Assembly: GCA_903919455.1 (NCBI GenBank)
Contig: CAIXIJ010000133.1
Span: 1-56,663, forward strand
Length of the DNA stretch: 56,663 nt
Source: an uncultured Acidimicrobiaceae bacterium
Lineage (GTDB): Bacteria; Actinomycetota; Acidimicrobiia; Acidimicrobiales; Ilumatobacteraceae
Direction: 5' to 3'
Numbering within the stretch: position 1 is the stretch's first letter; each line of letters starts with the position of its first letter. Shown piece by piece: positions 4,591 through 9,750 of this stretch. The translations under genes and the position numbers were made by a program. The notes beneath the pieces are model-generated. The model worked only from the letters and a program-made list of their open reading frames with translations, was not told where the DNA came from and did not search any database.

Positions 4591-6258
4591 ATGGGCGACC
4601 GCTACTACGTCACCGACTCCGATCTTTCGGAGCGCTTTCCGATCTATACCCGAGCCAATGTGGGCGAGGTGTTTCCGGATCCGGTCACCCCGCTCACGGC
4701 CGACACGGCCCTATTCGACGCCGAGCTCGGCTGGCGCGACGCATGGATTCGAATGGGCGCGTTCGAGGCCGACGAGTTTCCCGACGACACGTTCTGCCAG
4801 CTGGGGGTGCAAGGCGGCTACTGCTATCTCAACGCGTCGCTGATCCGCCTGTTCGGCGAGCGGGCGCCAGGCCTCAGCTGGCAGGCGATGGACGAGCAGT
4901 TCTTCGGTGCGCAACCCGGCATCCCGCCCTACGAGGAGATGGCTGGTGATGTGCGGCCCGATCTGTCGGAGAAGATCGGTGCCACGTTCGGGTGGGTGTT
5001 CGGTCAACAGAGCCTGTCGGACCTCACCGAACTCACCGACGACCGGCGGATGACCAAGGAACTCCGCGACAACCGGCCCGACTACACCACCTGGACCATC
5101 GAGGCCGTGTGGGAGCGCTACCTGTCGCTGGTTCCGCAGCACCGTGTGCTCTTCTCGCACCACCTGTTCACCACCTACATGGCCACGGTGCCGGTGGGCG
5201 TGATCAGTGGCGTGGCCACCGCCGTGGGCCGCCCCGACCTCATCATGCCGATCATCGCCGGCATCGGCGAGGTCGACTCCGCCGAGCCCAGCCACGCGAT
5301 GTGGGCGTTGTCGCGCCTGCCGCTGGACTCGAAGGAGTTCGAGGACGGTTTCGCGGCGTTCCTCTACGAGTACGGCAGCCGTGGCCCCAACGAATGGGAG
5401 AGCCGTTCGCCGTCGTGGGAGACCCGCCCGGCACTGGCGCTATCGGCCATCGACCGCATGCGCCAGGCCCCCGACTCCGCCAACCCCGCCGGCCACCACG
5501 CCGAGCGTGCTGCCGAGCGTGAGGCCGCCTCGGCCGAACTGCTGGCCATGGTGGAGGCCGACCCTGCCACCCACGGTCAACTCGCCGCCGCCATCGCCTG
5601 CTCCAAGGCGTGGCTGCCCGGCCGCGAGCGCACCAAGACCAACAACATCCGCCTGATTCACGAGATGCGCATGGCCATGCGCGAGATCGGTCGCCGCATG
5701 GTGGAGGCCGGTGCATTCGACGAGATCGAAGACTTCGGTTTCGTTCGGGTGGCGGAGATGCCGTCCCTGTTCGCGAACCCGACCTCGCTCACCGAGATGG
5801 TGCGCGAGCGTCGCGCCGAGTACGACCGCCTCGTGCAGCTCGAACCGCCGTTCGTGTTCGTGGGTCGCACCGACGGGCCCGACACGTGGCCGCGCCGCGA
5901 TGCGGCGGCAGCGAATGTGCTGGGCGCAGATGATGTGCTCGCTGGCATGCCCGGCTGCCCCGGCCAGGCCGAGGGCATCGCCCGCGTGGTGCTCGACTCG
6001 AACGATCCGTTCGCACTCGAGCCGGGCGACATTCTCATCGCGCCGATCACCGACCCGTCGTGGACACCGCTCTTCGTGCCCGCCGCCGGTGTGGTGGTGG
6101 ACGTGGGTGCACCGCTCAGCCACGCCATCATCGTGAGCCGCGAACTGGGCATCCCCTGCGTCATCAGCGCCACCGGTGCCACCCGCCGCATTCCCAATGG
6201 CGCTCGCATCCGTGTGGACGGCAGCACCGGCATGGTCACGGTTCTCGAACTTCCCTGA
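4591..6258 (+). CDS. PEP-utilising-enzyme mobile-domain (phosphohistidine swivel) protein
   Basis: The 555-residue protein has an N-terminal block YTRANVGEVFPDPVTPL typical of pyruvate phosphate dikinase/PEP synthase relatives. It ends in the swivelling phosphohistidine domain, with GDILIAPITDPSWTPLF, GAPLSHAIIVSRELGIPC (candidate phosphorylated His511) and the NGARIRVDG tail. There is no ATP-grasp domain and no PEP-binding TIM barrel, so it cannot do the whole reaction alone. It may work with a separate ATP-grasp partner or be a transfer protein. The start is set by GGGGGG 5 nt before the ATG. Confidence 0.8.
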   Translation: MGDRYYVTDSDLSERFPIYTRANVGEVFPDPVTPLTADTALFDAELGWRDAWIRMGAFEADEFPDDTFCQLGVQGGYCYLNASLIRLFGERAPGLSWQAMDEQFFGAQPGIPPYEEMAGDVRPDLSEKIGATFGWVFGQQSLSDLTELTDDRRMTKELRDNRPDYTTWTIEAVWERYLSLVPQHRVLFSHHLFTTYMATVPVGVISGVATAVGRPDLIMPIIAGIGEVDSAEPSHAMWALSRLPLDSKEFEDGFAAFLYEYGSRGPNEWESRSPSWETRPALALSAIDRMRQAPDSANPAGHHAERAAEREAASAELLAMVEADPATHGQLAAAIACSKAWLPGRERTKTNNIRLIHEMRMAMREIGRRMVEAGAFDEIEDFGFVRVAEMPSLFANPTSLTEMVRERRAEYDRLVQLEPPFVFVGRTDGPDTWPRRDAAAANVLGADDVLAGMPGCPGQAEGIARVVLDSNDPFALEPGDILIAPITDPSWTPLFVPAAGVVVDVGAPLSHAIIVSRELGIPCVISATGATRRIPNGARIRVDGSTGMVTVLELP

Positions 6259-7768: not shown

Positions 7769-9691
7769 TCAGAACCCCGAGCCGTGTGCGTGGTCGCACA
7801 GGCGGGCTTCGCCGGCGTTGATCTGCCCGGCGCCCACACCCTCGAGTGCGGCGAACGGGCCGCACTGATGGGGTGTGATCCAGACGTGGATCATCGGTGC
7901 AGGGCGGAACGCCACCAGCGGCGGGTTGCACTTGCCGCCCGAAGCGATGACACCCGCAACACGCGGCGCCACCGGATCGTCGGTGAAGCACAGGTTGTCG
8001 TGGATGTGCCACTGCATGAGCGCACCGCCGATGTTCGGCACCTCGTCGAGCTTCATGGTGTCGGGCAGCATGTACATCGCGCTGACCAGCTTCTTCGAGC
8101 CGTCGGGCTGCGGCTGGTACACCAGGCTCTCCGGGTGATCCGGGTCGAGCGTGGTGTCGTCGTTGATCCAGTCCCAGTTGATGAAGTGCTCGTGGCCGGT
8201 TGCGGCATCACCGATGCTGTGGAAGCCAGCGGCCTCGGCGGTACGGTAGTCGCTCCACATCGGCAACCGCACCAGCGTGACGGCCACCAGGTTCTCTGCT
8301 GCGGCCTGCTGCTCGGGGGTGACGCCCGAGATGCCGGACAGGTCGATGGGCTTGGTGGGGTCGTACGGCTGCGGGGTGGCGGCAGGTGCGGCAGCACCGT
8401 GGCCTTCGTGGCCGTGGCCGCACTGGTCGGTGCGCTGATCTTCCGGCACTGCGGCCTGGCCTGCGCCGACGCCCTCGAGCGCGGAGAACGGTCCGCAAAC
8501 ATTCGAGGTGATCCAGACGTGCACCATCGGGTTCTCGCCGCCGGTGTTCACGCCGCGTGCGCACTTGCCATTGGCGTCGGTGAGGCCCACCACGGTGGCC
8601 TTACCATTCACGCGGTCCCAGCAGAGGTTGCCGTGGTTGTGCCAGGTCATCAATGGACCAGCCCAGTTGGTGAGCGCAGGGTCGTCGGTGGGACGCGCGC
8701 TGGCGATGAACATCGCGCCGGCGAGGGTCTTCTGATCGCCCTTCACGGTGTACACCAGCGACTCGGGAGCGTTGGGGTCGAGGATCACGTTGTCGGGGAT
8801 GAGCGACTGCTTGATGAAGTGCTCGCTGCCGGTACCGGCGTCGCCGATGCTCACATAGCCATCGGCCTCGGCGGCAGCGGTGGTGCTCCACTTGGGCAGA
8901 ATGCGCTGGGCATCGGCGATGACCTTCTCGGCCCGGGCCTGCTGCTCGGCGGTGACGCCAGGGACCCCGGAGAGATCCATCGGCTGCGCCGGGTCGTACG
9001 GGCGCGGCCAGTTGGCGTTCGCCGCGCCCGGGGTGGTGTCGTGCGTGTGCACGGTGTCGCCGGTGGCGGTGGCGGGGTCGTGCGTGTGCACGGTGTCGCC
9101 CGTGGCGGGGTCGACTGCGTGGTCATGGTCATCGGCGCTTTCGGCGCCAGCGGCGAGGCTGCCGGCGTCGGAGTGCGCGTGGGTGTGGGCGTGCGTGCCA
9201 CCGGTCCACATGGCGGGAATGGCGAGGGCCGCAACCACGAGCGCCGGCAGTGCCAGACGAGTGGGGGCCGCGGGGCGCTTGCCCACCAGCAGTGCCGCGA
9301 TAGCAGCTCCGGCGGCTGCGGCACCGAGCGCGGCGCAGATGGTGTCGGCGAACTGGGCCGCCTCACGCGTCCCGAGACCGTCGATCCAGGAGATGCCCAT
9401 GATGCGAGTGGCGAGCCATCCGCCGACGGCGGCGGTGTTCACCGCAGCAACACCGAGCGCAGCGGCACGGTTGGGGCGCACCAGCGCCCACAGGCCCACA
9501 CCGAGTTGGAGCACGGTGATGACCACGAACAACCGAGCGAGTTCAGGGTGCTCGGCGTGAATGCCGGTGGCCGCTGCGTGGACAGCACCCGCACCCAACG
9601 ACGCAAGTGCGGCGACGGTGAGGCCCGGATAGCGCTCCGTGCTGGGCGGATTGGACGGCGTGGGGACCACGGGAAGGGGAGTCGACTCCAT
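7769..9691 (-). CDS. His-rich membrane-anchored protein with duplicated extracytoplasmic domain
   Basis: I do not recognise this 640-residue protein. Residues 24-162 hold about five hydrophobic helices. Residues 163-228 are a His/Asp-rich linker with HTHAHSD and two copies of GDTVHTHD. Two homologous domains follow, at about 231-412 and 442-623. Each has YDPxxPxDLSG, SIGDAxTGxEHFI, a WHxHxNLC block, a late Cys and HVWITxxxCGPF followed by ALEGVGAGQ. Conserved His and Cys suggest metal or heme binding outside the membrane, by inference. An alternative in-frame ATG lies at 9709; I prefer 9691 because TACAAT ends 6 nt before it. Confidence 0.7.
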   Translation of the reverse strand: MESTPLPVVPTPSNPPSTERYPGLTVAALASLGAGAVHAAATGIHAEHPELARLFVVITVLQLGVGLWALVRPNRAAALGVAAVNTAAVGGWLATRIMGISWIDGLGTREAAQFADTICAALGAAAAGAAIAALLVGKRPAAPTRLALPALVVAALAIPAMWTGGTHAHTHAHSDAGSLAAGAESADDHDHAVDPATGDTVHTHDPATATGDTVHTHDTTPGAANANWPRPYDPAQPMDLSGVPGVTAEQQARAEKVIADAQRILPKWSTTAAAEADGYVSIGDAGTGSEHFIKQSLIPDNVILDPNAPESLVYTVKGDQKTLAGAMFIASARPTDDPALTNWAGPLMTWHNHGNLCWDRVNGKATVVGLTDANGKCARGVNTGGENPMVHVWITSNVCGPFSALEGVGAGQAAVPEDQRTDQCGHGHEGHGAAAPAATPQPYDPTKPIDLSGISGVTPEQQAAAENLVAVTLVRLPMWSDYRTAEAAGFHSIGDAATGHEHFINWDWINDDTTLDPDHPESLVYQPQPDGSKKLVSAMYMLPDTMKLDEVPNIGGALMQWHIHDNLCFTDDPVAPRVAGVIASGGKCNPPLVAFRPAPMIHVWITPHQCGPFAALEGVGAGQINAGEARLCDHAHGSGF

Positions 9692-9703: not shown

Positions 9704-9750
9704 CGGCATGCCTGGCAGCCGGGCGTGTCGGGAGTCACTTTTCCGACGAA

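Follow-up and report, generated by a model that had tools for sequence, protein, structure and literature searches.

A duplicated histidine-bearing domain on a five-helix membrane module: probably an undescribed copper-handling protein

What might a protein do that carries, behind a membrane anchor, two copies of a domain that matches no family in the libraries searched? The window, i.e. the whole stretch of 56,663 nucleotides that was analysed, raises this question with the gene P0001, an ORF of 640 amino acids plus stop on the minus strand (7769-9691), for which an in-frame ATG at 9709, 18 bases upstream, is an alternative start candidate. It is the sole gene of its type in its own genome, where profile A2 of the duplicated domain matches only the two copies of P0001. 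In the following, D denotes the duplicated domain of about 200 residues and TM5 the predicted five-helix membrane module of P0001. The features are:

7769..9691, minus strand: whole P0001 gene, in the order TM5, His-rich linker, D copy 1, D copy 2; orthologues were found
9203..9622, minus strand: TM5 module, five predicted membrane helices, residues 24-163 (AF2 model and conservation in alignment A3)
9005..9202, minus strand: His-rich linker, residues 164-229, with 10 His (P0001 sequence)
8402..9004, minus strand: D copy 1, residues 230-430 (copy alignment; AF2 model with pLDDT 84.8 and pTM 0.83)
7781..8371, minus strand: D copy 2, residues 441-637 (copy alignment; alignment A1)

Architecture and family assignment of P0001

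The five helices and the His-rich linker described in the first-pass annotation are present. An AF2 model of residues 15-165 consists of five helices (residues 24-44, 49-71, 75-97, 114-136 and 147-163; pLDDT 88.8, pTM 0.86), the 10 linker His are contained within residues 161-229, and at least four linker His are found in 49 of 54 proteins of the TM5-D type. Five Lys or Arg residues fall in loops 0, 2 and 4 of P0001 versus one in loops 1, 3 and 5, and by the positive-inside rule this excess would place the N-terminus inside and the C-terminus, together with both D copies, outside. An extracytoplasmic location had been proposed from the start, and the loop charges are consistent with it, as are the apparent signal peptides or lipoprotein-like N-termini that precede D in relatives.

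The duplication itself is evident. Residues 230-428 and 441-636 align with identity in 94 of 200 columns (47%, E 2e-55), and the local alignment score is 421, while 1000 shuffles averaged 32.7 and never went above 57. Thus, two copies are present as had been claimed, with a length that is nearer to 200 than to the approximately 180 residues originally given, and the motifs EHFI, WHxHxNLC, HVWI and CGPF that had been read in them occur in both.

In searches of Pfam, NCBIfam and PDB sequences, the claim that P0001 belongs to no named family was borne out. Nothing in Pfam scored over the cut-off with P0001, the best entry being DUF6742 (PF20527) with 15.8 bits at residues 237-264 against a cut-off of 27; the best NCBIfam entry reached 11.4 bits against a cut-off of 323; and PDB sequences gave no match at E<=1 with P0001 and none at E<=5 with profile A2. 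In Pfam, P0001 had no match to DUF305 (PF03713) at E<=5, and none to the cupredoxins (PF00127, PF13473), PCuAC or SCO (PF04314, PF02630), MHYT or DUF7475 (PF24287); DUF7475, considered for TM5, scores 19.5 bits in L164 and 13.3 in L069 (cut-off 31.3). By the sequence tests made, P0001 therefore lies outside DUF305, the cupredoxins, PCuAC, SCO, MHYT, DUF6742 and DUF7475. In the open-licence literature searched, no description of either D or TM5 was found.

Conserved residues of domain D

Conservation was analysed in 122 rows of D. The residues that stand out in P0001 are listed here with their domain numbers:

8819..8821, minus strand: copy 1 H291 (domain H62), proposed metal ligand; invariant in A2, His in 120 of 122 rows
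8633..8641, minus strand: copy 1 HxH, H351 and H353 (domain H122 and H124), proposed ligands; H122 in 101 and H124 in 102 of 122 rows
8519..8521, minus strand: copy 1 H391 (domain H162), proposed metal ligand; His in 119 of 122 rows
8186..8188, minus strand: copy 2 H502 (domain H62; sequence and copy alignment)
8000..8008, minus strand: copy 2 HxH, H562 and H564 (domain H122 and H124; sequence and copy alignment)
7886..7888, minus strand: copy 2 H602 (domain H162; sequence and copy alignment)
8561..8623, minus strand: copy 1 C357 to C377 (domain C128 and C148), probable disulfide; paired presence and absence in 122 rows
7928..7990, minus strand: copy 2 C568 to C588, probable disulfide by homology to the copy 1 pair

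Both D copies of P0001 carry the full set of H62, H122, H124 and H162, which occurs together in 101 of the 122 rows (118 clusters at 95%) and is invariant across the 19 divergent rows of profile A2. The four-His site is not universal in D: in 17 rows, all of a short and distant type, H62 and H162 are kept and the HxH (H122 and H124) is absent. The remaining four rows are truncated, frame-split, degenerate or misaligned. A degenerate remnant of D was also observed at L073:7524-7997 (+), with the first His replaced by Cys and the HxH stretch gone, in a genome that holds an intact copy (L074).

The Cys residues follow another pattern. Of the 122 rows, 98 have both C128 and C148 and 24 have neither, and in no row does one occur singly; the distant short members have no Cys at these positions. 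C170 is found in 76 rows, each of which has a further Cys within 45 residues downstream, and a downstream Cys of the same kind exists in 26 of the 46 rows without C170. Because C128 and C148 always occur as a pair or are jointly absent, they are better explained as a disulfide than as a redox site, and we propose, reading from the conservation pattern, that the His residues of D are metal ligands and its Cys residues form disulfides. The redox module that had been suggested as an option for P0001, which would use the conserved Cys for thiol-redox chemistry or disulfide exchange, is extremely improbable. The close set of D proteins does have four Cys per copy, and TM5 has a loose likeness to VKOR (VIA-align Z 6.3 to 7.6) that means little for a helical bundle; however, the joint presence or absence of C128 and C148 in all 122 rows, the lack of any CxxC and the pairing of C170 with a downstream Cys form the pattern of disulfides, and a Cys-based redox role of D was rejected on the first of these grounds. 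The metal-binding role that had also been suggested gains indirect support from the four conserved His and from the copper partners treated below.

The AF2 model of D copy 1 has an alpha/beta fold in which strands hold H62 and H162 and the HxH comes after a helix. Foldseek of this model returned nothing at E<=0.001 in the PDB or in a viral structure library, and VIA-align against 585 chains gave no Z>=5 (best Z 3.4). The VIA-align rows for both D and TM5 were kept out of the evidence; for TM5, a likeness to the copper storage proteins Csp (best Z 10.2 over 105 residues, 2.6 A) was likewise not used, since helical bundles reach such Z scores by their arrangement alone.

It should be noted that conservation in D is not confined to His. 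W164 occurs in 120 of the 122 rows and G49 in 117, i.e. they are as conserved as the His residues, and the short members also retain a W-x-x-N-P-x-G-x-F stretch. This would fit an enzyme that has a mononuclear metal site and a substrate pocket (formed by the conserved W121, W164, D76, E81, G171 and F173) and that takes a cupredoxin or TM5 as electron partner; the fusion of D to a cupredoxin, described below, would suit such an electron relay. However, the Foldseek search of the PDB yielded no enzyme fold at E<=0.001, the gene neighbourhood shows no pathway, and tandem copies with a His-rich linker fit binding better than catalysis, so that we regard an enzymatic role of D as unlikely.

Distribution and partners of D and TM5

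Protein searches yielded matches in 47 of 100 related genomes and at 31 contig loci, nearly all of them labelled actinobacterial; one locus (L028) is labelled Acidobacteria, yet it branches within the actinobacterial rows of the D tree. With profile A2, built from 19 divergent copies, 41 of the 396 genomes sampled from the phylum were positive for D. The short-type proteins (L104-L116), of about 190-250 residues, match A2 more weakly (whole-protein E 9e-15 to 2e-5). A short-type query retrieved six plasmid records, three from Alphaproteobacteria, two from haloarchaea and one from Gemmatimonadota, and the same plasmid search with copy 2 or L069 as query gave no match. One of the six records has no annotation, and the other five name the product "hypothetical protein"; four of the six members pass the row threshold against A2, while L119 and L120 fail at the domain level and lie outside the 122 rows.

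Among 134 distinct proteins, labelled mechanically and including some on contig ends, 34 have the architecture TM5-D, 21 TM5-D-D, 35 D alone, two D-D and five D with a cupredoxin motif; 36 have TM5 without D and one has TM5 with a cupredoxin motif. TM5 is thus the commonest partner of D (55 of 97 D-bearing proteins).

In a tree of 77 of the 122 rows (45 near-duplicates, short-type rows and rows below 150 aa were dropped), the copy-1 rows, 30 in number, group in a single clade with support 100/99, and the majority of the copy-2 rows (13 rows, 99/94) group in a second one; four more copy-2 rows join elsewhere at weak support (86/70). The separate clades indicate that the duplication is old. Four single-copy proteins fall within these clades, L017, L018 and L025 in that of copy 1 and L024 in that of copy 2, as if one copy had been lost, which contig ends or frame errors in draft genomes may mimic.

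D was also observed behind other membrane segments. In L063:7755-8795 (-), L064:3597-4610 (+) and L093 it follows a different small membrane module, which is not TM5 and shows by eye a conserved pattern resembling WDxxxHA ... NPxHxL; in L064, a weak TM5-like ORF (4951-5382 +) lies close downstream of the D gene. In L066:7356-9512 (-), D is fused after two membrane repeats that we take to be DoxX-like, with no Pfam entry at E<=1.

The TM5 module has a conserved set of its own, namely H38, H45, Q62, W92, R96, E110 and D116 in P0001. In profile A3 (11 rows), two His in helix 1, a Gln in helix 2, a Trp and a Gly in helix 3, a Glu and an Asp are invariant and the Arg nearly so. Helices 1 and 4 have H38, H45, E110 and D116 at their outer ends, and in the model the conserved polar residues would gather towards that end of helices 1, 3 and 4. 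Over its 137 positions, A3 finds TM5 in 46 of 298 sampled actinobacterial genomes. Of the TM5 proteins that lack D, 37 in all, 33 went through a Pfam scan; left out were L020 (a truncated P0001 orthologue), L142 and two short ORFs, from L064 and L155. A copper domain scored over the cut-off in eight of the 33: a multicopper oxidase in L145 and L153-L156, DUF305 in L146 and L165, and Cupredoxin_1 in L147. The order of DUF305 and TM5 differs between L146 and L165, which implies separate fusions. Four further proteins carry other domains, i.e. PAS-GGDEF-EAL (L075), propeller-like or repeat families (L159 and L169) and Wzy_C (L162, a weak TM5 match), and 21 have no extra domain over the Pfam cut-off. 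The ORFs of L153-L156 are giants of about 2000 aa with an N-terminal TM5, multicopper oxidase matches and, towards the C-terminal end, Ig-like repeats; three of them (L153-L155) adjoin a short TM5 gene that stands alone, with another multicopper oxidase encoded nearby.

The gene at L075:1816-4920 (-), in which TM5 heads the PAS-GGDEF-EAL protein, indicates that the module may serve as a sensor input too. It would agree with a TM5 that binds haem or a gas, in which case P0001 would be a haem protein or membrane sensor and not a copper protein, and the two His of helix 1, one or two helix turns apart, could ligate haem. Nevertheless, P0001 has no signalling domain and the recurrent partners of TM5 are copper proteins, which makes this explanation very unlikely.

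The association of TM5 with copper proteins extends to neighbouring genes. Among the 52 TM5 places considered (30 genomes), 19 have a match to Cu-oxidase_2 or DUF305 no more than 5 kb away, compared with 0.76 (s.d. 0.86) for random placement. This count was made after removal of 18 of 70 places (TM5-D places and every place in the class Acidimicrobiia, the genome of P0001 included). Rows that were extra pieces beside a kept row had also been taken out, 32 of 116 for multicopper oxidases and some for DUF305. By ORF, the 19 places comprise five fusions and 14 neighbouring genes, two of which are themselves giant oxidase ORFs; by the assigned labels they fall into four families, f61 (most), f73, f58 and f51, and are thus not 19 independent events. 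The genome of P0001 contains an example on contig C19, where a standalone TM5 gene separate from P0001 (L163:5117-5698, -) begins inside the final 11 bases of the gene for a multicopper oxidase (L163:5688-7451, -), an overlap that suggests translational coupling.

For D, the copper partner that was found is a fused one. Five proteins (L071, L072, L089, L090 and L095) carry, C-terminal to D, a plastocyanin/azurin-type domain over the Pfam cut-off, and they form a single clade in the D tree, so that this fusion was probably one event. None of 27 D places (22 genomes, compared by eye and for multicopper oxidases only) lies within 5 kb of a Cu-oxidase_2 match. A crude motif scan of the D flanks for copper genes gave one match that was held to be spurious, with a cupredoxin pattern so strict that it missed L071, so that this negative carries little weight, and nothing copper-related is named near the six plasmid members (one of these records being without annotation). 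Clustering of the flanks of P0001 and D revealed synteny with genes read as housekeeping, presumably an ABC-F protein, an enoyl-CoA hydratase and an inositol monophosphatase-like protein, and the direct neighbours of P0001 are not copper genes. As no copper neighbours were found at D, its link to copper rests on the one fusion clade, the TM5 partner and its own His residues.

This leaves room for another metal. A four-His site or an HxHxH linker is well suited to Zn and Ni, and His-rich linkers bind both. With the same architecture, D might hold Zn or another divalent metal (Ni, Mn, Fe) and P0001 might serve to buffer or scavenge it outside the membrane, in which case TM5 and its copper partners would be uninformative about D; the suitability of the four-His site and the linker and the count of zero at 27 D places agree with this. 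However, one D clade is fused to a plastocyanin-like domain, and the commonest partner of D is the module that goes with multicopper oxidases and DUF305, so that Zn or its like appears somewhat unlikely. On balance, the conserved His, the fusion clade and the TM5 partner give a slight preponderance to the view that D binds copper.

A proposed role in copper handling

P0001 is probably an undescribed copper-handling protein, and we lean, with limited confidence, towards an extracytoplasmic, membrane-anchored protein that binds or relays copper. It would be tethered to the cytoplasmic membrane with its copper-binding part outside. TM5, as a membrane partner common to such copper proteins, would keep the D copies near the membrane, and the His-rich linker would catch copper outside it and provide an additional pool of low affinity. 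Each D copy, a small alpha/beta domain probably braced by disulfides, would then hold one copper via H62, H122, H124 and H162, in a geometry that we infer, and the copper might be buffered there or handed on to cuproenzymes. The genome of P0001 has one SCO and two PCuAC matches on other contigs and two CopD matches over the cut-off elsewhere, so that P0001 would add to known copper handling and not replace it.

Comparison with known systems helps to delimit this role. CopM of Synechocystis PCC 6803 has two DUF305 domains and binds copper (PMC4335983). With CopM and other DUF305 proteins (PF03713), P0001 shares a predicted extracytoplasmic location, richness in His, an association with copper and the frequent presence of two domain copies. 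DUF305 domains are also anchored by TM5 (L146, L165), as is D. In contrast, P0001 lacks a DUF305 match, and its D is alpha/beta by model; the fold of DUF305 is helical. We therefore propose that P0001 works like a CopM-type copper-binding protein without being one.

Membrane-anchored cupredoxins (PF00127, PF13473) are similar in that they are extracytoplasmic and either follow TM5 (L147) or share a chain with D (L071 and four others). Their ligand set is His-Cys-His-Met, whereas D is not a cupredoxin by sequence and has four conserved His and two HxH/HxW motifs. As regards the Greek-key beta-barrel of cupredoxins, the structural comparisons of D gave no PDB match in Foldseek at E<=0.001 and no Z>=5 among the 585 VIA-align chains. 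With the chaperones PCuAC and SCO (PF04314, PF02630), P0001 has in common its proposed role in copper handling outside the membrane, but not a sequence match, and the two PCuAC and the one SCO of its genome are encoded on other contigs. TM5, in turn, resembles MHYT, a small membrane module with conserved His that precedes GGDEF-EAL and other domains and for which copper has been proposed; TM5 likewise is small, has conserved His and is found before GGDEF-EAL and other domains. It differs by its five helices, by its H-x6-H / Q / W-x3-R / E / D pattern and by the lack of a Pfam MHYT match in P0001.

A wider view, which we consider possible but tentative, joins the two modules. D would be a metalloprotein superfamily with an unseen fold, represented in actinobacteria and, as a shortened and reduced type, in haloarchaea and other phyla; TM5 would be a general dock that keeps copper proteins (oxidases, DUF305, cupredoxins and D) at the outside of the membrane; and both would belong to an undescribed actinobacterial copper system in which P0001 is a two-site carrier.

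Copper loading and buffering at the surface of bacteria without an outer membrane are less charted than in Gram-negative bacteria. If the proposed role is true, two unnamed modules, D and TM5, would together gain a testable function: TM5, with its presence in 46 of 298 actinobacterial genomes, would be tied to copper enzymes, and D, for which neither Pfam nor NCBIfam has a model, would represent a new type of extracytoplasmic copper site.
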